DNA of 64,000 bases from the NCBI RefSeq assembly GCF_000943565.1, contig NZ_JTDW01000014.1:1-64000 (forward strand). Direction: 5' to 3'. Position numbers and translations under genes: made by a program. This DNA is from Neotamlana sedimentorum. GTDB taxonomy: Bacteria; Bacteroidota; Bacteroidia; Flavobacteriales; Flavobacteriaceae. Shown here piece by piece: positions 4,019 through 29,920 of the stretch. The notes beneath the pieces were generated by a model. That model was not told where the DNA came from, did not search any database, and was given only the letters and a program-made list of their open reading frames with translations. Every line of letters begins with the position of its first letter. Position 1 is the stretch's first letter.

Positions 4019-4063
4019 TGTGACTAAAGTCACAAAACAAATTAAATACCCATCGTAAATTTG
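4019..4063 (+). promoter_or_regulatory. CRP/FNR-type box and -7 element upstream of osmC
   Basis: TGTGAC-TAAA-GTCACA (4019-4034) is a perfect 6-bp inverted repeat. TAAATTTG (4056-4063) matches the Bacteroidota -7 element TAnnTTTG exactly. The box centre (4026.5) lies 36.5 nt before the G at 4063. The same spacing is found before ccoS, ccoI, usp and pflB. With initiation about 5 nt after the G, the box sits near -41.5, the class II activator position. Confidence 0.7.
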
Positions 4064-4080
4064 TGATAAAAAATACTACC

Positions 4081-4488
4081 ATGAATTACCAAATTAAAGC
4101 GTCATCCATTTTAAATAAAGATGCTATAGTTCATATAAAGCAATCCAACATAGATTTTGGAACAACTTCAAAAACTGCCAAATTGTTACCCAATCCTGCT
4201 GAACTATTTTTGGGTGCTTTTGCTTCTTGCGTTCTTAAAAATGTTGAACGTTTTTCTGGTATGATGAAATTTACCTACTCAAGAGCAACTATTCAAGTAA
4301 ATGCTACACGTCTTGAACACCCGCCAAGAATGGAACATATAGTGTATGAGCTGATAATCCATAGTAATGATAAAAAGCTAAATACGGCTTTATTAAAAAA
4401 AAATATTGAAAAGTTCGGCACAATCTACAATACTGTAAAATTATCTTGTTCTATTTCTGGCACCATAAGAATAATTGAAAATGTTTGA
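4081..4488 (+). CDS. OsmC family peroxidase-like protein
   Basis: A 135-residue OsmC/Ohr-fold protein. The two family cysteines are present: one in GAFASC (residue 50, helix start) and one in KLSCSISG (about 123). OsmC and Ohr proteins reduce organic peroxides with this cysteine pair; some members have other roles. The start is placed at ATG 4081 because the alternative GTG at 4063 is the last base of a perfect -7 promoter element and would precede the transcript. The upstream CRP/FNR-type box ties it to the redox regulon of this window. Downstream sequence is decayed. Confidence 0.8.
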   Translation: MNYQIKASSILNKDAIVHIKQSNIDFGTTSKTAKLLPNPAELFLGAFASCVLKNVERFSGMMKFTYSRATIQVNATRLEHPPRMEHIVYELIIHSNDKKLNTALLKKNIEKFGTIYNTVKLSCSISGTIRIIENV

Positions 4489-4684
4489 TTGCATACAAAA
4501 AACACGTTGAATATTTGTTTTCAGAAAAATATATTTCAAGTGATTTATGTAGATAAGAAGGAAACCGAATAGACTACCTAAAAACTTGAGGCAGCAGTTA
4601 AGGCTTTGTTCTCAAATGCGATTAAAAACCGAAAAGAAACACCAATTGATTAACGGATTTTACTTTTATTAGTGGTAATGGTTA
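4489..4684 (+). other. Decayed coding remnant, unassigned
   Basis: One frame reads as about 35 protein-like codons (VIYVDKKETE, then KLEAAVKALFSNAIKNRKET) interrupted by TAG and TAA. It precedes the ArsG-like remnant and may be the wreck of an upstream operon partner. No family can be named. Confidence 0.3.
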
Positions 4685-5003
4685 ATGACAGCTATTAGTT
4701 CGAGTCCATCAATAACCAACATAACCACTATAGCTTTTATTTCTAAAAATTTTTTTAGTAAACGAAAAGCGTTTTTAAGTAACTTGGTGTCACGATTATT
4801 TCATATACAGACGGATTATATTTACCTATTGTTTTTGCCTTTGGTAAAGGATTATTTATTAAACTTTTTACTTATTTATTGGCTTTTAAAGTAATACAAG
4901 TAGGTTTTTCTAAAATAGTATTGCTAAAATTGAAAAAGTAATGAGAACCATTGCCGGTGTTATTTCTATAATTATAGAGTTGTATAATGTTTCTATGTTT
5001 TAA
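4685..5003 (+). pseudogene. Remnant of an ArsG/CcdA-like membrane permease
   Basis: Three frames together recall one family. 4685-4800 reads MTAISSSPSITNITTIAFIS, like the N-terminus of ArsG-type permeases (L-L-T-A-I-S-P-C-P-L-A-T-N-I). 4805-4941 reads DGLYLPIVFAFGKGLFIKLF in another frame, like the late V-F-A-F-G-T-G segment. 4941-5003 reads MRTIAGVISIIIELYNVSMF in a third frame, like the final R-x-x-A-G-V-I-F-I helix. The middle of the family (roughly 100 residues) is missing, so deletion plus frameshift is inferred. The family assignment is from remembered patterns; the disruption itself is directly visible. Confidence 0.5.
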
Positions 5004-5082
5004 GAATGCTATAATAACCACCACATCAAAAACTATATAAATTACGTTCTTATAAGTTTGTCTTTCTTTTTGCTGTCAGGTT

Positions 5083-5784
5083 TCAATGACAATTCATTGC
5101 GCTTGAAACCAATTCGTTAACAGGAGCAGGAGAAATGTAAGGTATACCTAAACCTAGACCACGTAAAATAAACAATACACCAATTATAATTACAAAAACA
5201 GGAATAGCTTTTTGTATGCGTTGTTTTATAGCGGCATTTAAAAACTTGCCTAAATAAATAGCCGAAGTCATTAAAGGTACAGTGCCTAGACCAAATAAAA
5301 TCATATATAAAAAACCTTGTGAAATAGTTTGGCTAGCTAAACTCCCCAAGACAGCCATATAAACTAATCCACAAGGCAAAAATCCATTAAGAAAGCCAAT
5401 AGTTAAAAATGTATCGGCCGTTTTCTTTTTTAATGCTAAACCTAGTTGACTTTTAACTTTAGCAATTATTTTATGCAACGGTTTAGATAAGTTGTATTTA
5501 TTAAAAGTTTTATAAGGAAGTAAAACCACTATAATAATTAAAACACCAATGATGATTGATAATTGCTGTTGAAACCCAAAAATGTATAGGTTTTTGCCAA
5601 TAATCCCGAAAGCTAATCCTATTAATCCATAAGCCAATAACCTCCCAATATGATAAATAGTGATTTGACTTATTTTTATAACCGAGTTACTCCTGTTAAC
5701 AGGAAGCATAAAAGCTATTGGTCCGCACATCCCGACACAATGAAAACTTCCTAAGACTCCTAATATGAATGCAGACCAAAGCAT
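5083..5784 (-). CDS. TauE/SafE-type membrane protein of the cbb3 operon
   Basis: A 233-residue polytopic protein with about six hydrophobic segments. It carries the G-S-F-H-C-V-G-M-C-G-P motif near residues 12-22 and G-F-L-N-G-F-L-P-C-G-L-V near 130-141. These paired Cys motifs define the DsbD-like/TauE-SafE subfamily commonly encoded with cbb3 oxidases, where a role in copper or electron transfer for oxidase maturation is suspected but unproven. It is the last gene of the seven-gene operon read leftward from 11225 and abuts ccoH with no gap. The C-terminus ends in C-H, possibly metal-binding. Confidence 0.8.
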   Translation of the reverse strand: MLWSAFILGVLGSFHCVGMCGPIAFMLPVNRSNSVIKISQITIYHIGRLLAYGLIGLAFGIIGKNLYIFGFQQQLSIIIGVLIIIVVLLPYKTFNKYNLSKPLHKIIAKVKSQLGLALKKKTADTFLTIGFLNGFLPCGLVYMAVLGSLASQTISQGFLYMILFGLGTVPLMTSAIYLGKFLNAAIKQRIQKAIPVFVIIIGVLFILRGLGLGIPYISPAPVNELVSSAMNCH

Positions 5785-6231
5785 TTAATAAATAATTTCT
5801 TTTGTAAATCGATAAGGTGTATCGTTATAATTCCAATCTACTATAATGTTCCAACGACCACCTAACAAACGGGTTTCAGGTATGAGCAAATTGTGGTTAG
5901 ACAATGAAATAGCTGTTTCAAAGTCAAATTGTTTGTTAGATGGCCTGTATAGGAACACTTTTCCTGTTATTTTTTTTTCATCAAAATTTTCAGGGAATAT
6001 TAATAATATTCCTCTGTTGGTTTTTTTGTATGTAATGTTATGTTTTAGTTTTTTTGCGTTTTCTTCTTTGTAAATATTATTTTGAAGATTAAGTTCTTGC
6101 TTGTAATAATCTTCGGTTACTAAATCGTGGTTGTATTTATTATCGGTACTCATGGTTACAACGAAATACATAATAAAACTTATAAAGCCTATAAAAGCTA
6201 ATACAATACCAGTTCCCCAATTTATTTTCAT
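5785..6231 (-). CDS. ccoH: FixH/CcoH cbb3 oxidase assembly protein
   Basis: A 148-residue protein with one N-terminal membrane helix (MKINWGTGIVLAFIGFISFI) and a periplasmic beta domain; E-D-Y-Y-K-Q-E-L near residues 45-52 is the classic FixH signature. CcoH is needed for stable assembly of the cbb3 oxidase. The start is placed at ATG 6231. A frame-extended TTG at 6258 would begin inside a 7-bp tandem repeat and add nine poor residues. The gene lies between ccoG and the TauE-like gene and belongs to the same operon. Confidence 0.85.
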   Translation of the reverse strand: MKINWGTGIVLAFIGFISFIMYFVVTMSTDNKYNHDLVTEDYYKQELNLQNNIYKEENAKKLKHNITYKKTNRGILLIFPENFDEKKITGKVFLYRPSNKQFDFETAISLSNHNLLIPETRLLGGRWNIIVDWNYNDTPYRFTKEIIY

Positions 6232-6254
6232 AATGCTATTTTTTTTATTAATAT

Positions 6255-6289
6255 TCAACCATCAACCATCAACCATCAACCATCAACCA
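6255..6289. repeat. 7-bp tandem repeat, five copies
   Basis: TCAACCA is repeated five times without error in the spacer between ccoG and ccoH. On the coding strand each unit reads TGGTTGA and creates an overlapping TGATGG stop-start, so every copy can specify a five-codon frame M-V-D-G-stop. Copy number is likely to vary by slippage. Confidence 0.9.
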
Positions 6290-6291
6290 TC

Positions 6292-7722: not shown

Positions 7723-7730
7723 TTTATAAT

Positions 7731-8830: not shown

Positions 8831-8834
8831 AACT

Positions 8835-11030
8835 TTATTGATTTAGTGTGGTTAAGGTTTCTTCTATTTCTTGAACTTTAATATCGGTTCCTAAACGCTG
8901 TAAATAAGCTATTAAAGCGGTTATTTCACGATTTCTCATTTCAATAAAAGAAGTTCCACCAGCTTTTTTATCGGCTTCATAAGTTTCAGCAAAATCAGGA
9001 TCTGTATACAAGTTTTGTTCTATTTGTGTGCCTTGTTCTAGCATGCTTTTTTGCGCATTTGCAATATCGTCTTCGGTGTATGGTACACCTAGTTTAACCA
9101 TGGCTTTCATTTTAGATTCGGTCATCGATTTATCTAATTCGTTTCTAACTAGCCATTGGTAAGCTGGCATAATGGATCCAGATGAGGTGCTTTGCGGATC
9201 ATACATGTGGTTTAGGTGCCAGTTATCTGAATATTTTCCACCCACACGATGTAAATCTGGTCCTGTACGCTTACTTCCCCAAAGGAATGGATGATCGTAA
9301 ACAAATTCGCCTGCTTTACTGTAATCGCCGTAGCGCTCAACTTCGCTTCTAAACGGACGCACCATTTGCGAATGACAACTAACACAGCCTTCGCGGATGT
9401 AAATATCACGTCCTTCAAGCTCTAAAGGGGTGTATGGTTTTACACTGGCAATAGTTGGAATGTTAGATTCTACCATTATAGTTGGTATAATTTGAATTAT
9501 ACCACCAATTAATATGGTTATAGTTGCTAAAATGGTTAACTGTACAGGTTTACGCTCTAACCAGGTATGAAAAGTTTCTCCAGCAATTCGTCTTTTTGAA
9601 ACACGTTGAAGGGCAGGAGCTTCAGCTAATTCATCGGTTACTTGGCTACCTTTTTTCATGGTAACAATAACGTTGTAAGCTAAAACAAACATACCGATGA
9701 TGTAAAGCGATCCGCCTATGGCACGCATCCAATACATTGGTATAATTTCAGAAACAGTTTCTAAAAAGTTACCATAAACTAAAGTGCCATCTGGATTAAA
9801 TTGTTTCCACATACTGGCTTGTGTAAATCCAGCAACATACATAGGTAATGCATACATAATAATACCTAAAGTACCTATCCAGAAATGTAAATTAGCAAGT
9901 TTTGTTGAGTATAGTTTAGTTTTGAATAATCGTGGAATTAACCAATAAATCATACCAAAGGCTAAAAAGCCGTTCCAAGCTAAGGCTCCAACATGAACGT
10001 GTGCAATAACCCAATCTGTAAAGTGCGCAATGGCGTTTACATTTTTAAGTGATAGCATTGGCCCCTCGAACGTAGCCATACCATAACCTGTTATAGCAAC
10101 AACCATAAATTTTAAAACAGGATCTGTTCGTACTTTATCCCAAGCACCACGCAAGGTTAAAAGTCCGTTTATCATACCACCCCAAGACGGCATTAATAAC
10201 ATTACCGAGAATGCTACACCTAAATTTTGAGCCCATTCTGGTAAAGCTGTGTATAATAAGTGGTGAGGTCCTGCCCAGATATAAATAAATATTAAGGACC
10301 AAAAGTGTACAATTGATAATCTGTAAGAATAAATAGGTCTGTCTGCAGCCTTTGGAACAAAATAATACATTAGCCCTAAAAATGGGGTTGTTAAAAAGAA
10401 GGCAACTGCATTATGCCCGTACCACCATTGTACTAAGGCATCTTGAACACCAGCGTAAACCGAATAACTTTTTAAACCGCTAACCGGTAATTCTAAACTA
10501 TTAAAAATATGCAGTACAGCAACCGTAACAAATGTGCCCAAGTAAAACCAAATGGCAACATACATGTGGCGTTGTCTTCTTTTTAAAATAGTTCCTATTA
10601 AATTCCAGCCAAAAACCACCCAAACAGCAGCTATTGCGATATCGAACGGCCATTCTAATTCGGCGTATTCTTTACTGGTAGTAAAACCTAGCGGAAGTGT
10701 AATAGCAGCACCAACAATAATTAATTGCCAGCCCCAAAAGTTAATATTACTTAGGACATCGCTAAACATTCTAGCTTTAAGTAAGCGTTGCGATGAGTAG
10801 TAAACCCCTGCAAAAATGGCATTACCAACAAAGGCAAAAATAACAGCGTTGGTATGTAATGGGCGTAGACGACCAAAACTTAGCCAAGAAATACCGTCGG
10901 TAAGGTTAGGGAATAAAAACATAAAGGCCAAAAGTAGGCCAACAAGCATACCTACAACACCCCAAATCATGGTGGCGAGTAAGAACTTTTTAACAATCTT
11001 GTTGTCGTAATAAAATTGTTGTACTTCCAT
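8835..11030 (-). CDS. ccoNO: Fused cbb3 oxidase subunits I and II (CcoN-CcoO)
   Basis: A 731-residue fusion. Residues 1-460 are CcoN with a dozen helices and the expected histidines: RPLH (59), W-Y-G-H (206, copper B), G-P-H-H (256-257, copper B) and H-V-H-V-G (344, 346, hemes). After a linker and one helix near 498-518, the C-terminal part is CcoO with CVSCH (549-553) and a later methionine-containing loop. This is the proton-pumping, oxygen-reducing core for low oxygen. The N-O fusion is usual in Bacteroidota. It starts 9 nt after ccoS. Confidence 0.96.
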   Translation of the reverse strand: MEVQQFYYDNKIVKKFLLATMIWGVVGMLVGLLLAFMFLFPNLTDGISWLSFGRLRPLHTNAVIFAFVGNAIFAGVYYSSQRLLKARMFSDVLSNINFWGWQLIIVGAAITLPLGFTTSKEYAELEWPFDIAIAAVWVVFGWNLIGTILKRRQRHMYVAIWFYLGTFVTVAVLHIFNSLELPVSGLKSYSVYAGVQDALVQWWYGHNAVAFFLTTPFLGLMYYFVPKAADRPIYSYRLSIVHFWSLIFIYIWAGPHHLLYTALPEWAQNLGVAFSVMLLMPSWGGMINGLLTLRGAWDKVRTDPVLKFMVVAITGYGMATFEGPMLSLKNVNAIAHFTDWVIAHVHVGALAWNGFLAFGMIYWLIPRLFKTKLYSTKLANLHFWIGTLGIIMYALPMYVAGFTQASMWKQFNPDGTLVYGNFLETVSEIIPMYWMRAIGGSLYIIGMFVLAYNVIVTMKKGSQVTDELAEAPALQRVSKRRIAGETFHTWLERKPVQLTILATITILIGGIIQIIPTIMVESNIPTIASVKPYTPLELEGRDIYIREGCVSCHSQMVRPFRSEVERYGDYSKAGEFVYDHPFLWGSKRTGPDLHRVGGKYSDNWHLNHMYDPQSTSSGSIMPAYQWLVRNELDKSMTESKMKAMVKLGVPYTEDDIANAQKSMLEQGTQIEQNLYTDPDFAETYEADKKAGGTSFIEMRNREITALIAYLQRLGTDIKVQEIEETLTTLNQ

Positions 11031-11039
11031 AATAGTTAA

Positions 11040-11225: not shown

Positions 11226-11245
11226 ACCTACTTGAAGTTATGGTT

Positions 11246-11289
11246 CAAAATTACGTTGGCATCTTTTTTTAAAAGATGATATTTATCAT
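11246..11289 (-). promoter_or_regulatory. CRP/FNR-type box and -7 element of the cbb3 operon
   Basis: ATGAT-ATTT-ATCAT (11276-11289) is an inverted repeat with perfect 5-bp arms. TAATTTTG on the minus strand (11253 to 11246) is a perfect TAnnTTTG element. The box centre (11282.5) is 36.5 nt upstream of the G at 11246, placing the box near -41.5. The predicted leader to ATG 11225 is about 16 nt. Confidence 0.75.
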
Positions 11290-11303
11290 GTTTCATAAGT
11301 TTT

Positions 11304-13676
11304 TTATTTTAATTTCTGGCCTAAAATGTTAGTGGCAATGGTTGTAAAAATCACAATGCTAATAGAGCTTAACGGCATTAATATAGCTGCAATTACAGGC
11401 ATAAGTTGCCCCGTGATGGCAAAGTATAAACCAATAGCATTGTAGAAAAAGGAGAACACAAAACTCCATTTTATAATTTTTATAGCGGCTTTTGATGCCT
11501 TTATGTAATGATATAATTGATTAAATTTTGAAGCGTCAAGAATCGCATCGCATGCAGGAGAAAATACATTTATGTTTTCTGAAATAGCAATACCAACATT
11601 ACTTTGTGCCAGTGCACCTGCATCGTTTAAACCATCGCCAATCATAAGCACATTAGCGCCATTGTTTTGATGGTGTTTTATGTATTCTAACTTGTCGTTA
11701 GGTTTTTGATTAAAAATAAGTTTGGTTTTGCTTGGTAATAGCTTTTTTAGGTTGTTTAATTCGCTAGCGTTATCTCCTGAAAGAATAGCTAAATCGTAAT
11801 TAGTTTTTAATTGATTGAATAACTTTGAAATGCCTTTTCTATAAGCATTATAAAAAGTGAATTTGCCTTTGTAAGTATTATTTGTACTAATATGAACCGC
11901 TGTACTTAATTCGGTTTCCGGTTGAAGTTGCCCAACATATTTTGCAGAACCTATTTTAATAGATTCGTTTTGTGTTTTGCCATAAATACCTTCTCCTAAG
12001 TGTTCTTCAAAATAGTCTAAACTTTCAATATTATTTTGTTGAAGCAATTTGTATAAAGACCTGCTCAAAGGATGATTTGAGTGTCTTAACGTACTCGTTA
12101 GCAAAATTTCTTCGTTTGGCGTTAATTTTGAGCCTCGATAAGTTGTTTTTGTTTTTTTGTTTGAAGTTATTGTGCCTGTTTTATCAAAAAGAATAGTGTC
12201 TATTTTGGCAAGTTGCTCAATAACCGATGCATTTTTTAAATAAAATTTTAGTCTACCAAAAATGCGCAACAAATTGCCTAAAGTAAAAGGCGCAGAAAGA
12301 GCAATGGCACAAGGGCAAGCAATAATTAAAACAGAAGTAAATACGTTTAAGGCTTTGGTGGCATCAACAAATAACCAAAATGTAGTAGCAACTATGGCTA
12401 TGCTTAATACAGTAATAGTAAACCGTTTACTTATGGTGTTTGTTAAGGTTGTAAAGCCATCTTCTTTATTTTTATTGAATACATCGTTGCTCCATAGTTG
12501 TGTTAGGTAACTTTGTTCTACTGCATTTAAAGCTTCTATTTCAATGCTTCCAGAAGTTTGTTTTCCTCCAGCAAAAAGTTTATCTCCAGAGGCTTTTTTT
12601 ACAGCTTCAGATTCACCGGTAACAAAACTGTAATCAATGTTGGCATTTCCGTTAATTAAAATGCCGTCAACAGGAATAAGTTCTTCGTTTCTAATTAATA
12701 ATCGGTCGCCTTTTTTAATATCATAAACTTGAATAGGTTTTTCTTCTCCTTTATGAATTTTGGTTACAGCAATGGGGAAGTACGATTTGTAATCGCGCTC
12801 GAAAGACAAAAAATTATAGGTGCGTTGCTGAAAATATTTTCCGAGTAATAAAAAGAAAACTAAACCTGTTAAACTATCGAAAAAGCCAGTGCCAATATTT
12901 AAAACAATTTCGGCGGTGCTTCGTATAAATAAAACCAAAATACCAAGCGCTATAGGAATATCAATATTTAGTAATTTACTTTTTAAACCTTTGTAGGCCG
13001 ATACAAAATAATCTTGAGCAGCATAAAATACAACAGGCAAGGAAAATGTAAACATAAGCCAGCGAAATACGGTTTTATATTGCTCTAGCCAGAATTCATT
13101 AACTTCAAAATATTCTGGAAACGATAAAAACATAACATTACCAAAGGCAAAACCAGCAACACCTAGTTTGTAAATTAAGCTGCGATTAACTTTGCTTTTA
13201 CCTGTACTAAAATCTTCAAGAGAAATATAAGGTTCGTAGCCAATTTTGCTTAGTAATAATACCGCTTCTTTAAGCGAAAACGCTTCGGTTTTATAGGTGA
13301 TTCTAACTGTTTTTTTACCAAAATTTACTTTAGAAGCCGTAATATTAGGGTTGAGTTTGTTTAGGTTTTCTAAAATCCAAATACAAGAACTACAATGAAT
13401 ATGCGGAATAGTTAAGGTGGCAATTTGGTGTTTACCATCATTAAATTCAGTTAGTTTTTCAATTATAATTTTATCTTCAAGAAAATCGTATTTGCCTTCA
13501 ATATCTTGGGGTGTTGCACCTGGCGTTTGTTGTAAATCGTAATAGCAGGTTAAATCATTTTCAGAGAAAATTTCATAAACCGTTTTACAACCGTTGCAAC
13601 AAAAGTCTTTTTCTTGATATGTAACATGTTGGCTTTCGCAGGGGTCTCCACAGTGAAAACAAGTTGTTTTATTCAT
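11304..13676 (-). CDS. ccoI: Copper-translocating P-type ATPase CcoI
   Basis: A 790-residue P1B ATPase. N-terminal cysteine-rich metal site (C-F-H-C-G-D-P-C and C-C-N-G-C, residues 6-30), heavy-metal-associated domain with H-C-S-S-C (94-98), TGES (353-356), the membrane metal motif CPC (454-456), the phosphorylation site DKTGT (498-502) and a G-D-G-L-N-D hinge near 675. The N-terminal cysteine block and location beside cbb3 genes mark the CcoI/FixI subgroup, which exports copper for the oxidase. ATG 13676 has AGGAG 8-12 nt upstream, a rare good ribosome site for this phylum. Confidence 0.94.
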   Translation of the reverse strand: MNKTTCFHCGDPCESQHVTYQEKDFCCNGCKTVYEIFSENDLTCYYDLQQTPGATPQDIEGKYDFLEDKIIIEKLTEFNDGKHQIATLTIPHIHCSSCIWILENLNKLNPNITASKVNFGKKTVRITYKTEAFSLKEAVLLLSKIGYEPYISLEDFSTGKSKVNRSLIYKLGVAGFAFGNVMFLSFPEYFEVNEFWLEQYKTVFRWLMFTFSLPVVFYAAQDYFVSAYKGLKSKLLNIDIPIALGILVLFIRSTAEIVLNIGTGFFDSLTGLVFFLLLGKYFQQRTYNFLSFERDYKSYFPIAVTKIHKGEEKPIQVYDIKKGDRLLIRNEELIPVDGILINGNANIDYSFVTGESEAVKKASGDKLFAGGKQTSGSIEIEALNAVEQSYLTQLWSNDVFNKNKEDGFTTLTNTISKRFTITVLSIAIVATTFWLFVDATKALNVFTSVLIIACPCAIALSAPFTLGNLLRIFGRLKFYLKNASVIEQLAKIDTILFDKTGTITSNKKTKTTYRGSKLTPNEEILLTSTLRHSNHPLSRSLYKLLQQNNIESLDYFEEHLGEGIYGKTQNESIKIGSAKYVGQLQPETELSTAVHISTNNTYKGKFTFYNAYRKGISKLFNQLKTNYDLAILSGDNASELNNLKKLLPSKTKLIFNQKPNDKLEYIKHHQNNGANVLMIGDGLNDAGALAQSNVGIAISENINVFSPACDAILDASKFNQLYHYIKASKAAIKIIKWSFVFSFFYNAIGLYFAITGQLMPVIAAILMPLSSISIVIFTTIATNILGQKLK

Positions 13677-13701: not shown

Positions 13702-13774
13702 CAAATATTTATACTTCACCTTTTAAAAAATATGATATTAATCAGCTTTTGTCTATTTTTACCTCAATATTTTG
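13702..13774. promoter_or_regulatory. Shared CRP/FNR-type box between ccoI and the FixL-like kinase
   Basis: TGAT-ATTA-ATCA (13733-13744) lies in the 115-bp divergent region. Leftward, AATATTTG (13709 to 13702 on the minus strand, one mismatch to TAnnTTTG) ends 36.5 nt from the box centre. Rightward, TATTTTG (13768-13774, one base shorter than consensus) ends 35.5 nt from it. A single regulator dimer could therefore serve both genes from about -41. Confidence 0.6.
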
Positions 13775-13791: not shown

Positions 13792-15033
13792 ATGCTAAAT
13801 AATAACGATGTATTTAATGTGCTTTTCGATGCTGTTTCCGAGGGTGTAATTGTAGTAAACGAGCAGCAAAAAATTGTAGCTACAAATGCTTCTGCAGAAA
13901 ACATGTTTGGGTATTCTAAGCATGAGCTTTTAAATCAGGATTTATTAGTTTTAATTCCAAAGGATTATCACCATTCTCATAGTGATAATGTAGAAAACTT
14001 CATGGCGCATAAAGAGCGTAGGCAAATGGGGCACGGGCGCGATTTGTATGGTATATGTAAAAACGGAAATGCTATTCCTGTAGAGGCCGGTTTAAATCCT
14101 TTAGAGATAGAAGGAGAAAGTTACGTTATGGCTATAGTTATTGATATTTCTGTGCGTAAGAAACAAGAAGAAGAATTATTGAGGTTAAACAATAAGTTAG
14201 AAGAAGAAGTAAAACAGCGTACTAAAGAATTACGTTATACTGTAGATTCTTTAACTATTGTAAATAAAGAACTCGACGAAGAAATAAAAAAGCGTATTGA
14301 AGCCCAAGGGAAAACCGTAAAAGCTTTAAAAAAAGAAAAGGAACTTAACGAGCTAAAAACAAAATTTTTATCGTTGGTTTCGCACGAGTTTAAAACCCCT
14401 TTAAGTGGTATATTAACTTCCGCGATGTTGTTAGGTAAATACAAATTAAGTGAACAACAAGAAAAACGAGATAAACACATAAAAACGATAACAGATAAAG
14501 TACATTATTTAAATAATATTTTAAACGATTTTTTATCTGTTGAGAAGTTAGAATCTGGAAAAATAAAATACAATTACAGTAATTTTAATGTTAGTAAAAT
14601 TGTAAACGAGGTTATTTATAATGCGAATATGCTGTTAAAAGAGGGACAAGTAATTAACTATCCAGAAAACATTGATGAATACTCAATGTTTCAAGATGAA
14701 AAAACTGTGGAGTTGGCACTATCAAATTTAGTTAACAATGCGGTTAAATATTCCTCTGAAAACACTATTATAGATATTAATATTCAGCAAAACGATACCA
14801 CTACAACATTTATAGTAAAAGACAACGGTATAGGAATACCTAAAACTGAACAAAAAAATATTTTTAACCGATATTTTAGAGCAGAAAATGCATTGCTAAC
14901 CCAAGGCACGGGTATTGGGCTAAATATTGTAAAAAGTCATATTGAAAATTTAGGAGGTTCTATTAGTTTTACCAGCGAAGAAAATAAAGGAAGCGAATTT
15001 ATATTTAAACTACCAAACACAGCAAAACAATGA
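13792..15033 (+). CDS. FixL-like PAS histidine kinase
   Basis: A 413-residue cytoplasmic kinase without membrane segments. PAS domain about 1-125, a long coiled coil about 122-190, dimerisation/phosphoacceptor H198 in S-H-E-F-K-T-P, then an ATPase domain with N-L-V-N-N-A-V-K-Y, D-N-G-I-G-I-P and G-T-G-I-G-L. In the PAS domain H63 and R83 align with the heme-ligand histidine and distal arginine of FixL, with the same 20-residue interval, in the context F-G-Y, P-K-D-Y-H-H-S-H and G-H-G-R-D. This suggests heme-based oxygen sensing; it is an inference, since related PAS domains without heme share parts of this pattern. It overlaps its response regulator by 4 nt. Confidence 0.85.
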   Translation: MLNNNDVFNVLFDAVSEGVIVVNEQQKIVATNASAENMFGYSKHELLNQDLLVLIPKDYHHSHSDNVENFMAHKERRQMGHGRDLYGICKNGNAIPVEAGLNPLEIEGESYVMAIVIDISVRKKQEEELLRLNNKLEEEVKQRTKELRYTVDSLTIVNKELDEEIKKRIEAQGKTVKALKKEKELNELKTKFLSLVSHEFKTPLSGILTSAMLLGKYKLSEQQEKRDKHIKTITDKVHYLNNILNDFLSVEKLESGKIKYNYSNFNVSKIVNEVIYNANMLLKEGQVINYPENIDEYSMFQDEKTVELALSNLVNNAVKYSSENTIIDINIQQNDTTTTFIVKDNGIGIPKTEQKNIFNRYFRAENALLTQGTGIGLNIVKSHIENLGGSISFTSEENKGSEFIFKLPNTAKQ

Positions 15034-16076
15034 AAAAAGTTTTACTTATTGAAGATGATGCCGTATTAAGAGAAAACACCGAAGAATTATTAGAGCTTTC
15101 TAATTTTAACGTAGTTACAGCACCCAACGGAAAATTGGGAGTAGAACAGGCTAAAAAAGAACTTCCAGATATAGTAGTATGCGATATTATGATGCCAGAG
15201 TTAGATGGTTATGGCGTACTTGAAAACCTTGCTAGCACAGAAGCAACTAAATATATACCTTTTATATTTTTATCTGCAAAAACCGAACGTAAAGATGTAC
15301 GAAAAGGCATGGATTTAGGTGCCGACGATTACATTACAAAGCCTTTTGAAGAAGAAGAGTTAATTAGTGCTATTAATAGCCGTATAGCAAAAGCAGCTAT
15401 ATTAAACGAGGAACGCCTTGCGAAAGAAAGCGGAGAAAAAGAAGATGAACTACGTTCGTTAAACGATTTAAAAAACTTTTTTGAAGATAACGGAGAAGAG
15501 GTTGCTTACAAAAAAGGTGATTTAATTTTTGAAGAAGGTCAACATTCAAATAAGGTTTACCTAATATCAAAAGGTTTAGTAAAATGCCATAAACTAGACG
15601 AACAAGGTAAATATTTAACAACTGCACTTTATAAAGAAGACGATTTGTTTGGTTACAACTCGTTAAACCAAATTACACCATACCAAGAAACTGCAACAGC
15701 AATGCAAGATTCGCAGTTAGTAGCATTGTCAAAGCAAGTGCTTGAAGATGTGTTAGATAGTAATCACAAAGTAACTTTAGAGCTAATACAATTACTTACC
15801 GACAATATTACCGATGTAAAAGATCAATTACTACAAATGGCTTATAGTTCGGTAAAGCGCAGAACCGCAATTACCTTAATTAAATTTGCCGAAAAAATAA
15901 ACAGAAAACCAAACGATGCAATTCGTGTATCTAGAAACGATTTAGCTAGTGTTGCCGGTGTTGCCCAAGAAAGTTTAATTAGAACTTTGTCTAGTTTTAA
16001 AGATTTGGGGCTTATTGAAATTGAGGGTAGAAATATTAAAATTTTAGACATTAATAAATTACACCATATAAATTAG
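15030..16076 (+). CDS. Response regulator with receiver and CRP/FNR output domains
   Basis: A 348-residue fusion: receiver domain (1-125, acidic pair E8/D9/D10, phosphoacceptor D52 in V-V-C-D-I-M-M-P, lysine in T-K-P-F), then a cyclic-nucleotide-binding-type beta barrel (about 145-260, G-D-L-I-F-E-E-G) and a CRP-type winged helix (about 275-348). The recognition helix reads Q-E-S-L-I-R-T, keeping the E and R that read TGA half-sites in FNR. It looks like FixJ and FixK functions in one protein, controlled by the FixL-like kinase that overlaps it by 4 nt. Likely targets are the TGAY-N4-RTCA boxes nearby. Confidence 0.85.
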   Translation: MKKVLLIEDDAVLRENTEELLELSNFNVVTAPNGKLGVEQAKKELPDIVVCDIMMPELDGYGVLENLASTEATKYIPFIFLSAKTERKDVRKGMDLGADDYITKPFEEEELISAINSRIAKAAILNEERLAKESGEKEDELRSLNDLKNFFEDNGEEVAYKKGDLIFEEGQHSNKVYLISKGLVKCHKLDEQGKYLTTALYKEDDLFGYNSLNQITPYQETATAMQDSQLVALSKQVLEDVLDSNHKVTLELIQLLTDNITDVKDQLLQMAYSSVKRRTAITLIKFAEKINRKPNDAIRVSRNDLASVAGVAQESLIRTLSSFKDLGLIEIEGRNIKILDINKLHHIN

Positions 16077-16101: not shown

Positions 16102-16146
16102 TATGATTTTGGTCATATTTAAATAAAAATATCCCGACTACTTTTG
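16102..16146 (+). promoter_or_regulatory. CRP/FNR-type box and -7 element of the usp gene
   Basis: TATGA-TTTTGG-TCATA (16102-16117) is a perfect 5-bp inverted repeat. TACTTTTG (16139-16146) matches TAnnTTTG. The centre-to-G interval is 36.5 nt, as at osmC, ccoS, ccoI and pflB. Confidence 0.7.
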
Positions 16147-16165
16147 TATTAAAGTACAAGTGAGG

Positions 16166-16996
16166 ATGAAAAATATTTTAATACCAACAGATTTTTCCGA
16201 AAATTCTTTGAATGCCATTAGGTATGCGGTTAGTCTATACAAAGATGCCGCTTGTAATTTTTATATTTTACATGTTGAGGCAGAAATAGATAATAATGAG
16301 TCAAATCTTGATATTCACTCATCAGTAATAAATATAGAAAAAACATCTATAAACGGTTTTTTGAAGGAATTTGTAAACCGTGTAAAAAAAAACGTTACGT
16401 TTAACAAAAATCATCAGTTTTTTACAATAGCCAATCATGATTCTTTAATTAACTCTATACGAGAAGAAGTATTACTTAAAAATATAGACTTAATAGTCAT
16501 GGGCACCAAAGGTATTTCCGGCTGCAGCGAACGTACTGTGGGAACAAATGCGGGTAACGTTATTACTAAAGTTAAGTGTAATACGTTAATAGTTCCAGAG
16601 AATGCAAAATTTGAAGTACCAAAAAAGATTGCCTTTCCAACAGATTTCTCAATTTTTTATAACGTTAATACATTACTACCACTTACTGAAATTATTAAAA
16701 ATAATAATTCTGAAATTGAGTTTCTTCACATTAGTAAGCGAGATTTAGTATTAAATGAAAATCAACGCATAAATATTGAGTATTTAGAAGACTATTTCGC
16801 CGACATATCACATGGTTTTCATTTTTTAACACATACAAAAATAGAAAATGCAATTCAAGGTTTTGTAAACGATAAAGACATTACTTTAATAACCATGCTT
16901 GGTAAAAATCTCAATTATTTTCAGCATATATTATTTCATCCTTTAGCAAAAGAAATTAGTTACTACAAAGATGTACCATTTTTAGTGTTACATTAA
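16166..16996 (+). CDS. Tandem universal stress protein
   Basis: A 276-residue protein with two UspA-type domains. The first has the typical start K-N-I-L-I-P-T-D-F-S (residues 2-11) and a G-T-K-G-I-S-G stretch near 115 where ATP-binding members have G-x2-G-x9-G-S/T. The second begins K-K-I-A-F-P-T-D-F-S near 155 and is degenerate at the nucleotide site. Two-domain Usp proteins with FNR-type promoters are known from anaerobic stress regulons. ATG 16166 is preferred over GTG 16160 because homologues start just before K-N-I-L. The upstream box supports low-oxygen induction. Confidence 0.85.
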   Translation: MKNILIPTDFSENSLNAIRYAVSLYKDAACNFYILHVEAEIDNNESNLDIHSSVINIEKTSINGFLKEFVNRVKKNVTFNKNHQFFTIANHDSLINSIREEVLLKNIDLIVMGTKGISGCSERTVGTNAGNVITKVKCNTLIVPENAKFEVPKKIAFPTDFSIFYNVNTLLPLTEIIKNNNSEIEFLHISKRDLVLNENQRINIEYLEDYFADISHGFHFLTHTKIENAIQGFVNDKDITLITMLGKNLNYFQHILFHPLAKEISYYKDVPFLVLH

Positions 16997-17045
16997 AATA
17001 GGAGTTTAGCGAATAGTATAATAAAATCACATAAATAAAATACGT

Positions 17046-17723
17046 ATGGGTAAATGTGAGCAATGTATAATAAGGCAATTTAATGCCTTAAAATCATTAC
17101 ATAAAGAAGATCTAATTCGAATAACAGGCTGTAAAACCTCAAAAAAGTTAAGGAAAGGAGAAGTGATTTTTGAGGAAGGTGAAAACATAAATGGTGTGTT
17201 TTGTATACGTGAAGGTGTTTGTAAATTAACTAAGCTGAGCCCTAATGGAAAAGAACAAATTGTTAGATTAGTTATTAAAGGAGATTTGTTAGGGCAGAGA
17301 TCATTAGTCTCTAATGAGGTCGCAAATTTAACCGCCGTAGCTGCCAGCGACATGGAAGTGTGTTTTATTCCTAAGCAGGAAATTTTATTCGATTTAAGTC
17401 AAAATATTAATTTTTCAATGAATATGTTAAAAAGTATGGCTGAAGAGTTAAAATTGTCTGAAAATATTATTGTTGATATGGCACAAAAAACGGTTAAGCA
17501 GCGTTTGGCTGAAACGTTATTGTATTTAAAAGAAAATTTTGGAGAAGATATTAATGGTTTTTTGAATATTATTTTAACTCGCGAAGATTATGCTAATATC
17601 GTAGGAACTGCAACTGAATCGGCTATAAGACTGCTTTCTCAATTTAAAAAAGAAGGCTTAATTAGTGCTGAAGGAAAAAAGATAAAAATAAATAACGCTG
17701 AAGCTTTAAAACTTGTAGAGTAA
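17046..17723 (+). CDS. FNR-like Crp-family regulator with cysteine motif
   Basis: A 225-residue regulator: N-terminal C-E-Q-C (C4, C7), cyclic-nucleotide-type barrel with G-E-V-I-F-E-E-G near 38-45, and a winged helix with recognition sequence T-E-S-A-I-R-L. C4, C7 and C106 (V-C-F-I-P) align with E. coli FNR cysteines 20, 23 and 122; the position of FNR C29 is N13 here, though C29, C53 and C59 are also present. Three cysteines plus another ligand would resemble Bacillus FNR. An oxygen-labile iron-sulfur cluster is therefore plausible but unproven. The gene ends 2 nt from convergent ydeI. Confidence 0.82.
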   Translation: MGKCEQCIIRQFNALKSLHKEDLIRITGCKTSKKLRKGEVIFEEGENINGVFCIREGVCKLTKLSPNGKEQIVRLVIKGDLLGQRSLVSNEVANLTAVAASDMEVCFIPKQEILFDLSQNINFSMNMLKSMAEELKLSENIIVDMAQKTVKQRLAETLLYLKENFGEDINGFLNIILTREDYANIVGTATESAIRLLSQFKKEGLISAEGKKIKINNAEALKLVE

Positions 17724-17725
17724 TT

Positions 17726-18301
17726 TTACCAATTACCTCTAGATTTTATATTACTTTCACAAAGTTTTATTATTTCTGAAATACGTTTTTCACGTGTTGC
17801 CTCGAGTTTAGCTTGATTTAACCAATATAAATAGCTTTTTCTATACGACGGAGCAAAATTTTTATAATTTGAATATGCCTCTGGTTTTGTGTTAAATGCA
17901 TTTTGTAGATCTTTTGGTATAATACCGTTTTCTACATCATCTAAGGTAAACCAACTTTTATTTTCTTTGGCTATGGCAATACTTTTAAGTCCGCTTTCAT
18001 GCATTAAATTTTCGGTAATTAACTGGTCAATATACCTTTTATTTACAGCACTCCACACACTTTTTGAGTTTCTAGGAGAAAAATATTGTTGGCGCTTACC
18101 ATCGCCTAAACTTTTTACAGTAGAATCTATCCAACCATAGCAAAGCGCAACTTTTACGGCTTCTTCCCAGCGCATCGATTCTGCATTGTGACTCACTTTA
18201 TAAAATATAAGGAAAACACCCTTTGAAATGGCGTGATTGTTGTGCAACCACCCACGCCATTCGGAATCAGTTTTAAAATATAGCACTTCTTTTTCAGGCA
18301 T
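17726..18301 (-). CDS. YdeI/OmpD-associated family protein
   Basis: A 191-residue soluble protein. Typical YdeI features are visible: F-K-T-D-S-E-W-R-G-W-L near the start, A-L-C-Y-G-W-I-D-S near 52-60, Y-F-S-P-R-N-S-K-S-V-W-S near 73-84 and a C-terminal segment with A-P-S-Y-R-K-S-Y-L-Y-W-L (about 149-160), the latter resembling bacteriocin-protection YdeI proteins. Molecular function is not established. Its start codon shares one base with the stop of the upstream aminopeptidase (TAATG), indicating coupled translation, and its end is only 2 nt from the end of the FNR-like gene. Confidence 0.8.
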   Translation of the reverse strand: MPEKEVLYFKTDSEWRGWLHNNHAISKGVFLIFYKVSHNAESMRWEEAVKVALCYGWIDSTVKSLGDGKRQQYFSPRNSKSVWSAVNKRYIDQLITENLMHESGLKSIAIAKENKSWFTLDDVENGIIPKDLQNAFNTKPEAYSNYKNFAPSYRKSYLYWLNQAKLEATREKRISEIIKLCESNIKSRGNW

Positions 18302-19938
18302 TATAATTTTTCAGATTCAATATAAAAATCTCTATCAACAACCAATTTAGGGTCTTTTACATCAAGTTCAAGTGTTTGCCAATTTGCGTTCGGTTTTATC
18401 CATTGCGATTCGCCATTAAGTTCTATTTGAATAGGCATGTCGAAATTTTCAATAATATTGACATAGCGGTATTTTAATAATTTTCCTTTAATGGAATATT
18501 CTAATTTTGGAATTCGAATATCTCTTAAATACTGATTAAAGAATTCGGATAAATTAATACCAGACTCCTTACTTAAAAAGCTTTCAATTTGTTGTGTTGT
18601 TACCGTTTGGTGATAAAATTGAACATTCATTTTACGAAGTATTTGTCTCCATTTTTCATCATCTTCAATAAGTTGGCGTAAGGTGTGAAGCATATTAGCT
18701 CCTTTGTAATACATGTCACTTGAACCTTCCTTGTTAACATTGTAAGGCCCAATAATAGGTTTATCGTTTAGAATGTTACTGCGCGTACCAATAACATAAT
18801 CTGCTGCGGCTTCTTTACCGTAATAATAATCTAAAAATAGGTTTTCTGAATAAGCTGTAAAGCTTTCGTGAATCCACATATCGGCAATATCTTTATTCGT
18901 AATATTATTGGCAAACCACTCGTGACCAGATTCGTGAATAATAATAAAATCGAATTTTAAACCCCAACCAGTTCCAGATAAATCTCTGCCTAAATATCCC
19001 GTTTTGTATTGGTTTCCATAAGTTACAGAACTTTGGTGTTCCATGCCTAAGTAAGGTACTTCTACTAATTTATAACCATCTTTATAAAACGGATATTGCC
19101 CAAACCAATGCTCGAAAGCTTTCATCATTTTTGGCGCATCTTTAAAATGTTCTTTTGCTTTTTCAAGGTTGTCTCTTAAAACATAATAATCCATGTCTAA
19201 GTTTCCGGCCATACCATCGTATACTTCAGAGAAGTGCACATAATCGCCAATATTCATATTCACGCCATAGTTATTAATAGGGCTGCCAACAAACCATGTA
19301 TAGGTTTTAGTATCTTCAATCTGTTCTACTTTACGTAATCTTCCGTTAGAAACATTCATTAATTTTGATGGTACATTTACGCTAATTTGCATACTATCAA
19401 CTTCGTCATACATATGGTCTTTACAAGGCCACCAAACACTTGCACCCAATCCTTGACAAGATGTAGCTATAAAATGATTGCCATTTTTATCTTTTTTCCA
19501 GGAAACGCCTCCATCCCAAGGGGCTCTTTTTGCTTCACGCGGATGACCTTCGTAGTAAACGTCAATAGTTTGTATACTACCAATATCTTGTGGTGCTTTT
19601 AATGTGATAAAATGGGCATTACCGTCAGGTTTTATATCTAAAGTATCGTTATTCTGTAAGACATAAAGCATTTTTAAAGGCTCTTGTAAATCTATTTGAA
19701 GCACAGAGTTTGACTCTAAAACTGTATATTGAATGGTGTTTTTACCAGATATAAATTTGTCTTCGGGATTTACTTTTATATCTAATTTGTAGTATGTTAA
19801 ATCCCACCATTTACGTTCTGGGGTAATTGTACCACGTAGTGTGTCTTGATGGGTAAATAATGTTTTATCAGACATTAACCCTTGCCCAAAAGAAATATTT
19901 ATAGATATAAATAAAATGAAACATAATAGCTTTTTCAT
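18301..19938 (-). CDS. Secreted M1-family aminopeptidase
   Basis: A 545-residue zinc peptidase with a signal peptide (cleavage after the S-F-G-Q region, about residue 19). The zinc site H-E-S-G-H (335-339) with third ligand E358 (H-E-S-F-T-A-Y) and the substrate loop G-M-E-H-Q (298-302, equivalent to G-A-M-E-N) are intact. It is shorter than full-length M1 enzymes because the C-terminal helical domain is lacking, as in many Bacteroidota. It should trim peptides in the periplasm or at the surface. It is coupled to ydeI by a TAATG overlap. Confidence 0.92.
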   Translation of the reverse strand: MKKLLCFILFISINISFGQGLMSDKTLFTHQDTLRGTITPERKWWDLTYYKLDIKVNPEDKFISGKNTIQYTVLESNSVLQIDLQEPLKMLYVLQNNDTLDIKPDGNAHFITLKAPQDIGSIQTIDVYYEGHPREAKRAPWDGGVSWKKDKNGNHFIATSCQGLGASVWWPCKDHMYDEVDSMQISVNVPSKLMNVSNGRLRKVEQIEDTKTYTWFVGSPINNYGVNMNIGDYVHFSEVYDGMAGNLDMDYYVLRDNLEKAKEHFKDAPKMMKAFEHWFGQYPFYKDGYKLVEVPYLGMEHQSSVTYGNQYKTGYLGRDLSGTGWGLKFDFIIIHESGHEWFANNITNKDIADMWIHESFTAYSENLFLDYYYGKEAAADYVIGTRSNILNDKPIIGPYNVNKEGSSDMYYKGANMLHTLRQLIEDDEKWRQILRKMNVQFYHQTVTTQQIESFLSKESGINLSEFFNQYLRDIRIPKLEYSIKGKLLKYRYVNIIENFDMPIQIELNGESQWIKPNANWQTLELDVKDPKLVVDRDFYIESEKL

Positions 19939-21343: not shown

Positions 21344-21345
21344 TA

Positions 21346-21813: not shown

Positions 21814-21849
21814 AGACTTATTTTTAACTAAAAGTAGTAAAAAATAAAA

Positions 21850-21878: not shown

Positions 21879-21918
21879 TGAAATTTGAATTAGTCACTCA
21901 AAAACTACTAATAAACAA

Positions 21919-23730: not shown

Positions 23731-23741
23731 TGTTTAATAGT

Positions 23742-24932: not shown

Positions 24933-24938
24933 TTTTTC

Positions 24939-27347: not shown

Positions 27348-27370
27348 GTTTAGTTAATACCCTTAAATGT

Positions 27371-27805: not shown

Positions 27806-27825
27806 TATAGATTTATAGATTTCTT

Positions 27826-27862
27826 CAAATATATAAAATTTTATTATGCATGCATAATAAAA
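27826..27862 (-). promoter_or_regulatory. marR promoter with perfect 24-bp palindromic operator
   Basis: Bases 27839-27862 form a perfect palindrome (core TTATTATGCATGCATAATAA at 27841-27860, extended by TT and AA). On the minus strand TATATTTG (27833 to 27826) matches TAnnTTTG. The palindrome thus covers roughly -18 to -41 of the predicted start, between and over the promoter elements, the ideal place for a repressor. Confidence 0.85.
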
Positions 27863-27884
27863 ATAGTTAAAAATTAGTCAAAAA

Positions 27885-27914
27885 AAAACACCGCTTATAG
27901 GGCTGCGGTGTTTT
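27885..27914 (-). terminator. Terminator of the acyl-CoA ligase gene
   Basis: AAAACACCGC (27885-27894) and GCGGTGTTTT (27905-27914) form a perfect 10-bp stem. On the minus strand, downstream of the ligase stop at 27920, the hairpin ends in a long T run. Confidence 0.88.
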
Positions 27915-27919
27915 GTTAA

Positions 27920-29692
27920 TTAAGATCTATATATTTTCTCAATAAGGTCGTGATACATATTTTTTATCACATCTCTTTTCATTTTCATTGTTGGTGTAAG
28001 GTGTCCGGAGTCAATTGACCATACTTGTGGTGTAAGTTCGAATTTTTTTATTTGTTCCCATCTACCAAACTTGGCGTTACATATATCAATTTCGTTTTGT
28101 ATTCTTTCTTTTATAATATTGGAATTTGCAATTTCAGTATCCGTTAAGCCAACATTCACGTTTTTATGTTGTATCCATTCTTTTACAAATTCAAAATTTG
28201 GTTGTATTAGGGCTGCTGGCATTTTTTCGCCTTCCCCAATAACCATAATTTGCTCTATAAAACGCGATTGTTTTAATTCGTTTTCTAAAAGCGTTGGAAT
28301 TATATATTTACCTCCAGAAGTTTTAAACATTTCCTTTTTACGCCCCGTAATTTTTAAAAATCCCTCAGCATCTAATTCACCTTTATCTCCAGTATGAAAG
28401 TAATCGCCCGTCATTACACTAGCAGTTTTCTCATCATCTTTATAATAGCCAATCATTACGTTTGGTCCTTTTATTAAGATCTCACCATCGTCTGCAATTT
28501 TTACTTCTACATTACGAATAGGTTTACCAACAGTACCAATTTTAAAGTTGTTTTCGCGGTACATGCCCACTCCAATTACAGGAGAAGTTTCTGTTAAACC
28601 ATAACCTTCCATAACTTGCATACCCGCAGCACAAAAAATTCTAGACAGTCTGGGTTGCAACGCGGCACTACCCGAAACCATAGTGTGTAATTCTCCTCCA
28701 AGGGCTTCACGCCATTTACTAAATATTAATTTATTGGCAATTTTCAATTTAAACTCGTACCAAGCACCGTTTTTTCGATATGGTTCCCATTGTTCACCGA
28801 GTTTAACTGCCCAAAAAAATAGGGCTTTTTTAATACCAGTGAGTTCTGCTGCTTTAACCATGATTTTATCATAAACCTTTTCTAAAAGTCGTGGTACAAC
28901 ACTCATTAAATGAGGCTTGATTTCTTTCGCATTTTCACCAATTTTATCAATAGCTTCGGCGAAGTAAATAGATAAGCCGGCGTATTGATATATGTAAATT
29001 AGTACACGCTCAAAAATATGGCAGATTGGTAAGAAGCTTAAAACTCTATTTTGGTTTTGGTTAAGCGGTAACCTTGGGTAACTATCAAGCGCATTACTAG
29101 TAATATTCCAATGAGATAGCATAACACCTTTTGGTTTACCTGTGGTTCCTGATGTGTAAATTATAGTAGCTAAATCTTCTGATTTCACATCGTTTTTTCT
29201 AGCCTCAACTTCGTTTTGATTACTTTCGTCTTTTCCTAATTCGAATAATTCGGAGTAATGTTTACAGCCTTCAATATGGTCGAAACTATAAACGTCTTTT
29301 AATTTAGTGTTTGCTTTTACTTTATTTACTTTTTCTAGAACCTCCTTGTCTGAAACGAAGCAATATATAGATTCACTATGATTTAAAATATACTCATAAT
29401 CTTCAGCAGAAATAGTTGGGTAAATTGGAACATTCTGTGCGCCCAATTGCAATACACCAATATCCATAATGTTCCATTCAGTTCTGTTTGAGGTAGAAAT
29501 TACAGCTATTTTATCATTTTTATTAACTCCTAACCGAAGTAAGGCTCTACTTACTGAATTAGCTTTATCTATATATTCTTGTGTAGATGTTTTAATCCAT
29601 TTGCCATTATATTTTGTTACCAAAGCGGCATCGGTCGGGTTGTTTTCCAGTTGGTGATAAGGAAAATCGAAAAGTCTTTTTAGTTCAGTCAT
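27920..29692 (-). CDS. Long-chain fatty-acid-CoA ligase
   Basis: A 590-residue adenylate-forming enzyme. The P-loop is I-I-Y-T-S-G-T-T-G-K-P-K-G-V near 178-191, followed by the A5-type motif G-Y-G-L-T-E-T-S near 362-369, T-G-D-K-G near 435 and G-R-K-K-E-M-F near 452-458. It resembles the bacterial FadD15/ACSL group that activates long-chain fatty acids with ATP and CoA. It is monocistronic, flanked by its own terminator, and transcribed in the same direction as the marR operon that would consume its product. Confidence 0.92.
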   Translation of the reverse strand: MTELKRLFDFPYHQLENNPTDAALVTKYNGKWIKTSTQEYIDKANSVSRALLRLGVNKNDKIAVISTSNRTEWNIMDIGVLQLGAQNVPIYPTISAEDYEYILNHSESIYCFVSDKEVLEKVNKVKANTKLKDVYSFDHIEGCKHYSELFELGKDESNQNEVEARKNDVKSEDLATIIYTSGTTGKPKGVMLSHWNITSNALDSYPRLPLNQNQNRVLSFLPICHIFERVLIYIYQYAGLSIYFAEAIDKIGENAKEIKPHLMSVVPRLLEKVYDKIMVKAAELTGIKKALFFWAVKLGEQWEPYRKNGAWYEFKLKIANKLIFSKWREALGGELHTMVSGSAALQPRLSRIFCAAGMQVMEGYGLTETSPVIGVGMYRENNFKIGTVGKPIRNVEVKIADDGEILIKGPNVMIGYYKDDEKTASVMTGDYFHTGDKGELDAEGFLKITGRKKEMFKTSGGKYIIPTLLENELKQSRFIEQIMVIGEGEKMPAALIQPNFEFVKEWIQHKNVNVGLTDTEIANSNIIKERIQNEIDICNAKFGRWEQIKKFELTPQVWSIDSGHLTPTMKMKRDVIKNMYHDLIEKIYRS

Positions 29693-29877
29693 TTATATCT
29701 ATTAATCATGGAATGCAAAATATAAAAATTATACGAAATAAAACAAGTTAAAAATTTAATAATTTAATAATTTAAGTTATGTTTTTATGATTTAACTATA
29801 AAATTGATATGTAATAACTGGTAATATGTTAAAATTAAGGCTGATTTTAATGGAAAATCAACAATTAATATCGAACA

Positions 29878-29920
29878 TGATAAATGTCAGCTAAATATTC
29901 GTGTTTCGATAGTAATTTTG
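29878..29920 (+). promoter_or_regulatory. CRP/FNR-type box and -7 element of the pflB operon
   Basis: TGAT-AAAT-GTCA (29878-29889) and a perfect TAATTTTG (29913-29920). The box centre (29883.5) is 36.5 nt from the final G. The position of the box could be predicted from the -7 element by the spacing seen at the other sites. The remaining part of the 256-bp gap shows no gene. Confidence 0.75.

Follow-up and report, generated by a model that had tools for sequence, protein, structure and literature searches.

Promoters and genes of the window

The DNA considered here is a 64,000-nucleotide stretch of Neotamlana sedimentorum (the window, which is contig C7 of this 3.96 Mb genome and has a G+C content of 33%). 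It carries osmC, a cbb3 oxidase cluster, ccoI, a PAS histidine kinase, a receiver-CRP fusion protein, usp, a second CRP/FNR protein (the FNR-like protein), pflB and a radical-SAM protein. An earlier note on this DNA had claimed that several of these genes share a CRP/FNR-type inverted repeat (the box) at one exact distance from a -7 element, an agreement that it thought hard to ascribe to chance. We find this geometry in many relatives, and we propose, with a probability of roughly 0.8, that the boxes are predicted operators of a CRP/FNR regulon of the class II type that serves low-oxygen genes and varies the known FixL/FixK-FNR control. The features in question are the following.

4021 to 4032, forward strand: CRP/FNR-type box of osmC, within the perfect palindrome TGTGACTAAAGTCACA (motif scan; site absent at 7 other orthologues)
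4056 to 4063, forward strand: -7 element TAAATTTG of osmC (motif scan)
8835 to 11030, reverse strand: ccoNO, cbb3 oxidase subunit fusion, COX1 plus FixO (Pfam)
11246 to 11253, reverse strand: -7 element TAATTTTG of the cco operon (motif scan)
11277 to 11288, reverse strand: box of the cco operon, which begins with a short reading frame, labelled ccoS in the earlier note, followed by ccoNO (motif scan and conservation)
11304 to 13676, reverse strand: ccoI-type copper P-type ATPase (Pfam; the best NCBIfam matches are heavy-metal ATPase models, under their cut-offs)
13702 to 13709, reverse strand: degenerate -7 element AATATTTG of ccoI (locus comparison)
13733 to 13744, reverse strand: box of ccoI, between the ccoI and kinase genes (motif scan and conservation)
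13792 to 15033, forward strand: histidine kinase with a FixL/DosP-type PAS domain (Pfam, PAS matches, alignment)
15030 to 16076, forward strand: receiver-cNMP-HTH_Crp fusion (receiver-CRP), candidate activator (Pfam, alignment)
16104 to 16115, forward strand: box of usp, and also of the FNR-like gene at 17046 if the two genes form one transcript (motif scan and conservation)
16139 to 16146, forward strand: -7 element TACTTTTG of usp (motif scan)
16160 to 16996, forward strand: universal stress protein, usp (Pfam)
17046 to 17723, forward strand: FNR-like regulator, second candidate activator (Pfam, alignment, NCBIfam)
29878 to 29889, forward strand: box of pflB (motif scan)
29913 to 29920, forward strand: -7 element TAATTTTG of pflB (motif scan)
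29949 to 32174, forward strand: pflB, pyruvate formate-lyase (Pfam)
32220 to 33005, downstream of pflB: radical-SAM protein, likely the pflB activase (Pfam)

The boxes and -7 elements of osmC, ccoS, ccoI, usp and pflB all lie where the earlier note had placed them. The distance from the centre of the box to the final G of the -7 element is 36.5 nucleotides in all five, which is equivalent to 23 nucleotides between TGAYN4RTCA and TAnnTTTG (hereafter spacing 23). Both motifs are strict at osmC, ccoS, usp and pflB, and ccoI has the same distance with one mismatch in its -7 element, AATATTTG. The strict architecture occurs four times in the window and in none of 200 order-2 Markov simulations, and the box alone is found six times against a mean of 1.54 under the same type of simulation. 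For osmC, the start codon is likely to be ATG 4081 rather than GTG 4063.

One spacing in the genome and in its relatives

A scan of the whole genome, which the earlier note had suggested beforehand, paired TGAYN4RTCA with a downstream TAnnTTTG at spacings of 8 to 38 (31 values). Nine of the 13 pairs fall at spacing 23 (P 2.4e-11 for one preset spacing among the 31), and five of nine do so once the window's four sites are excluded (P 3.9e-6); the backwards control has none at this spacing. When one mismatch was allowed at spacing 23, there were 22 matches (9 strict and 13 mismatched) against 15 backwards, for which reason the one-mismatch scan was not used to extend the regulon and the ccoI case rests on conservation instead. 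Both the simulations and this concentration of spacing make chance agreement unlikely, as had been claimed.

The same spacing stands out among relatives. In 80 loci around relatives of the receiver-CRP protein, taken as the best of 572 and covering 1.61 Mb, there are 158 occurrences of spacing 23, whereas the remaining 79 spacings between 0 and 79 together account for 68 and for at most six each. Boxes with three or five inner bases, or with a reversed -7 element, give no peak in these loci (at most five at any spacing), and no second peak that would mark another activator position appears over spacings 0 to 79. In an order-wide sample, strict sites are present in 92 of 146 genomes, 492 in total against nine backwards. 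A phylum-wide sample holds 69 sites in 20 genomes from other orders of the same class (control 4) and 39 sites in 26 of 111 genomes of other classes (control 5). The architecture is most pronounced in Flavobacteriaceae and extends to neighbouring orders.

Three genomes of the same genus hold 20 strict sites, 19 of them on target genes of the N. sedimentorum genome or the window (eight of nine in G002, seven of seven in G003 with hemN counted twice, four of four in G001). The odd site of G002 precedes a reading frame that is ArsR-like by eye, and none of the 20 belongs to osmC. The two hemN copies of G003 (loci L186 and L189, at G003:C2:3189 and C2:192084) stand on one contig with identical site sequences, either by duplication or as an assembly effect.

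Position of the box relative to the promoter

In Escherichia coli, CRP and FNR act as class II activators from position -41.5. In the main text of the transcript-start map of Flavobacterium psychrophilum, the sigmaA element TAnnTTTG spans -12 to -5 (PMC9723704). With its final G at -5 and the centre of the box 36.5 nucleotides further upstream, the box would be centred at -41.5, the class II position. The earlier note had put the box near this position, and we infer the same from the starts of F. psychrophilum, a different species. A class II activator is marked by a constant distance from the core promoter at all its targets, which both the 9 of 13 genomic pairs and the 158 against 68 occurrences display, and by a CRP/FNR-type palindrome at about -41.5, which is what is found here when the starts are taken from that other species. 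The logo of 161 distinct sites reads (A/C)TGAY-N4-RTCAT, with T at 98% directly after the box on its promoter-near side and a T-rich stretch beyond; G does not exceed 13% from -33 to -30, so that there is no TTG at that place.

Target genes and their conservation

Outside the window, strict sites precede pta, hemN (identified above its curated cut-off), a thioredoxin-fold protein with a Thioredoxin_9 match, a TonB_C protein and a 1150-residue protein. The last (L083:4094-7546) has no match in Pfam or NCBIfam and stands behind a strict site in G002 and G003 too.

Conservation was followed gene by gene. Among the 80 loci, the cco operon combines spacing 23 with a strict TAnnTTTG in every one of the 22 that contain a full-length ccoNO (one more, L060, is cut off). 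The ccoI box is present in all 16 full-length ccoI loci (789 to 828 amino acids), with TTTG at spacing 23 in 15 and at spacing 22 in one. In all 15 loci at spacing 23, the -7 element of ccoI is nAnnTTTG rather than TAnnTTTG: the first T is lost, and the A and the TTTG are kept. Three shorter ATPase genes labelled ccoI (654 to 655 amino acids) have the box in one case and no TTTG within spacings 20 to 26. A strict site lies within 400 nucleotides after the receiver-CRP gene in 75 of the 80 loci, and one lies upstream of some usp gene in 78. Several loci, among them L052, L063, L066 and L067, have up to ten usp genes arrayed beside the kinase and the receiver-CRP gene. Within the 80-locus set hemN has a site of its own in one case of 15 (L012); in most loci it follows usp, whose site may serve it too. 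The pflB site is kept in G002, of the same genus.

The kinase promoter is another matter. Its site is off by one, as the earlier note had reported, with spacing 22 and a non-consensus ATATTTTG, and the spacing of 22 recurs in Tamlana laminarinivorans (L002). The idea that the kinase is itself a target did not survive the comparison: none of 78 loci has a TAnnTTTG facing the kinase at spacing 23, and we therefore rejected the kinase as a member of the regulon. Kinase-ward TAnnTTTG occurs at spacing 24 in four loci and at spacing 20 in three, all seven of them from Aquimarina. Where a TTTG does stand at spacing 23 beside that box, it points towards the divergent gene in 19 loci (10 of them strict) and towards the kinase in one. 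Forty-five loci (L048:7913-8329 and 44 others) encode a protein that is some 137 residues long and looks TerB-like by eye, its gene being divergent from the kinase and within 600 nucleotides of it in 40; the L048 copy matches neither Pfam nor NCBIfam, and some copies have a box at spacing 23.

Candidate regulators

In the 80 loci the genes as a rule stand in the order kinase, receiver-CRP, usp (kinase in 78, receiver-CRP and usp in all 80). The best matches of the kinase PAS domain are FixL (1d06, 1.9e-14) and DosP. His63 is invariant (79 of 79) and Arg83 is kept in 70 of 79, both aligned with a His and an Arg of FixL and DosP; we take the aligned histidine to be the heme ligand of those two proteins, with the pair in the roles of proximal histidine and distal arginine. 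The kinase thus has the features of a FixL-type heme-PAS domain, and it is predicted to bind heme.

The receiver-CRP protein has Asp52 and, in its recognition helix, Glu314 and Arg318 in 81 of 81 sequences. The FNR-like protein has the corresponding Glu191 and Arg195 in 30 of 30, and the E-x-x-x-R pattern of the recognition helix is common to both. Cys4, Cys7, Cys53 and Cys106 of the FNR-like protein are likewise present in 30 of 30. Its Cys4, Cys7 and Cys106 align with three cysteines of Aliivibrio fischeri FNR; the four-ligand arrangement of FNR is not reproduced at 17046, where Asn, Ser or Thr occupies the third position and the fourth invariant cysteine is Cys53. The curated FNR model NF008365 is its best match, yet at 100 bits it stays under the cut-off of 228. 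With its altered cysteine set the FNR-like protein fails as a canonical FNR, but it could hold a cluster with a moved ligand. A structure model (mean pLDDT 73.7, with residues 1-27 below 50) and the sequence both give 2gau, a Porphyromonas gingivalis Crp/Fnr protein, as the top solved-structure match, and the best 50 of the 1910 matches to this model in a fold search are, as expected, CRP/FNR-family proteins. Because usp and the FNR-like gene are separated by 49 nucleotides on one strand, the latter may be transcribed from the usp site as well. The genome encodes a third CRP/FNR paralogue (G000:C12:51443-52027), which is 35% identical to the FNR-like protein.

Which of the two proteins reads the box was approached through the 146-genome sample, in which a regulator was called present by E-value cut-offs chosen in this analysis and G097, with a 36% match, was counted as having both. 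Genomes with both regulators have 2.21 sites per Mb (18 genomes), those with the FNR-like protein only 1.32 (59), those with receiver-CRP only 1.67 (3) and those with neither 0.31 (66). Of the 12 FNR-like-only genomes in the same family, five, of genus g54, were examined, and all five have the site at cco and hemN. Conversely, G074 encodes receiver-CRP but lacks a close FNR-like homologue, and its sites stand at cco, hemN, usp and a thioredoxin gene. In G171 there are sites at usp and pta, and in G116 three sites stand before other genes; a cco site was not seen in either, the presence of cco genes there being unchecked. Three of 50 sites examined fall inside reading frames of at least 256 codons, likely by chance. 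Since each regulator is found without the other and the sites are kept, either protein may read the box, and the simplest reading of the sequence comparison would be that both recognise it.

Proposed mechanism and alternatives

We propose that (A/C)TGAY-N4-RTCAT, centred at -41.5 in sigmaA promoters with the -7 element TAnnTTTG, serves as the binding site of a CRP/FNR-type dimer, which would activate these promoters in the class II manner, substituting for a -33 element. The two paralogues encoded side by side (15030 and 17046) probably read the same box; the receiver-CRP protein is likely to be phosphorylated by the FixL-like heme-PAS kinase (13792), and the FNR-like protein would be the second reader. 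Core targets would be the cbb3 oxidase, its copper ATPase, HemN and usp, with pta, pflB and others depending on lineage. We infer oxygen as the signal from the kinase PAS domain, from the targets and from the finding, described in the main text of the F. psychrophilum study, that this species induces its cbb3 and heme synthesis genes under oxygen limitation (PMC9723704). A fuller version, which we hold only tentatively and at somewhat less than even odds, is that oxygen is read twice into one -41.5 operator in Flavobacteriaceae: through a heme kinase and a receiver-CRP fusion in which FixJ and FixK are merged, and through an FNR-like paralogue with relocated ligands Cys4, Cys7, Cys53 and Cys106, either protein being losable while the sites stay.

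Several observations weigh against the proposed regulon or narrow it. Over all 31 spacings the genome has 13 pairs against 14 in the backwards control, and it is the concentration at spacing 23, rather than the pair total, that is unusual. The 80 loci, as the best 80 of 572, are mutually related and are not independent samples. The regulator classes hang on self-chosen E-value cut-offs, the receiver-CRP-only class consists of three genomes, and genomes with neither regulator, mostly small, still hold 25 sites in 82 Mb. Of 78 loci, 59 have a box ahead of the kinase; in most of these neither side shows a TTTG at spacing 23, which the proposed model leaves unaccounted for. In a 60-genome sample of the family, the pflB site is kept in three of 10 pflB loci and the osmC site in one of eight orthologues, that of N. 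sedimentorum itself. Taken gene by gene, these counts make cco, ccoI and usp the core, leave pflB patchy and suggest that the osmC site may be recent or a chance occurrence. The central claim of the earlier note stands, in the form of a regulon of low-oxygen genes with fixed class II type geometry, and its physiologically related targets are borne out for cco, ccoI and usp, while osmC and pflB are weak members (osmC just possible) and the kinase drops out.

It is also conceivable, if rather unlikely, that the FNR-like protein alone reads the boxes, sensing oxygen by an Fe-S cluster, and that receiver-CRP binds elsewhere and adjoins a box-driven usp by chance. The g54 genomes that keep cco and hemN sites with this protein only are consistent with such an arrangement, as are its four invariant cysteines and its wider distribution (77 against 21 genomes of the 146, under the self-chosen cut-offs). 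G074, however, keeps its four sites with receiver-CRP and no close FNR-like homologue, the site directly after the receiver-CRP gene is kept in 75 of 80 loci, and the recognition helix has the same E-x-x-x-R in both proteins. We think it a good deal less probable again that the box is a repressor operator that blocks RNA polymerase, or that it answers to cAMP or redox stress instead of oxygen. A box over the -35/-33 region could block polymerase, and one of the six window boxes, that of osmC, agrees with the consensus of E. coli CRP, TGTGA-N6-TCACA; the other five do not. One exact spacing is expected of an activator that touches polymerase and is unneeded for a blocker, many of the targets are low-oxygen genes, and the ccoI box is present in 16 of 16 loci with a -7 element degraded in 15, which fits dependence on an activator. 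Coincidence, or a by-product of A+T-rich promoters, has next to no probability left. It could appeal to the 33% G+C of the window, to pair totals at background over all spacings and to one-mismatch matches near background, but it is already refuted by the spacing histogram (158 at spacing 23 against 68 over the 79 others, with altered boxes or reversed -7 elements at five or fewer anywhere), by the empty backwards control at spacing 23 and by the conservation of the sites.

Relation to known systems

The regulon proposed here resembles E. coli FNR class II promoters in a box near -41.5, a TGA...TCA core and low-oxygen targets. It differs from E. coli FNR in that the box usually has A or C rather than T as its outer base and the -7 element is TAnnTTTG. 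The FNR-like protein shares with the A. fischeri FNR sequence an N-terminal CxxC and a later cysteine, and departs from it in the Asn, Ser or Thr at the third cysteine and in its invariant Cys53.

A second comparison is with the FixL-FixJ-FixK cascade and the FnrN/FixK regulons of Alphaproteobacteria, as far as these are described in the part of the source consulted (PMC4999443). A heme-PAS kinase, a CRP/FNR-type regulator, cco and hemN as targets and the coexistence of kinase-driven and one-component branches are common to both. Whereas a separate FixJ induces fixK in that cascade, here receiver and CRP domains are combined in one protein encoded beside the kinase, so that kinase and DNA-binding protein are one step apart. 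Unlike the alphaproteobacterial regulons, the targets have a Bacteroidota sigmaA promoter and include usp, pta and, in places, HPF and the TerB-like open reading frame. The TAnnTTTG element and the rise of cbb3 and heme genes at oxygen limitation are shared with F. psychrophilum; the words Crp and Fnr are absent from the main text of that study, and an activator box was not found described there, supplements aside (PMC9723704). P. gingivalis HcpR, PgRsp and CrpPg come from the same phylum and the same protein superfamily, and the opening lines of abstracts among the matches listed for the P. gingivalis CRP/FNR literature make no mention of a cco regulon at fixed distance. Nor was the architecture found described by title or abstract opening among the matches listed in open-licence literature. 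Newer here are a relay that runs through a single protein and a changed set of cysteines; as a whole, the system is a variant of known FNR/FixK control on a Bacteroidota promoter.

Little was found in print on the position of activators at Bacteroidota TAnnTTTG promoters, and a conserved class of sites at one exact distance provides a ruler for class II activators on this polymerase. For a widespread family, these data also predict which genes form a low-oxygen regulon, and they present a FixL system whose relay would be one protein shorter. Carbon sensing has been inferred in one study for the CRP homologue of a Flavobacteriales metagenome-assembled genome from a Bacteroides MalR motif (PMC8510549); a MalR-type motif may miss such a regulon.

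The nearest named relative of N. sedimentorum by receiver-CRP protein is T. laminarinivorans, at 99% identity among the matches listed, which places the organism among the marine Flavobacteriaceae; the crp gene that follows usp is just 69% identical between the two. Along window positions 16200-18900, identity to the T. laminarinivorans locus drops from 96-100% to 69-82% across usp, crp and the next genes and then recovers, which looks like a replaced patch.

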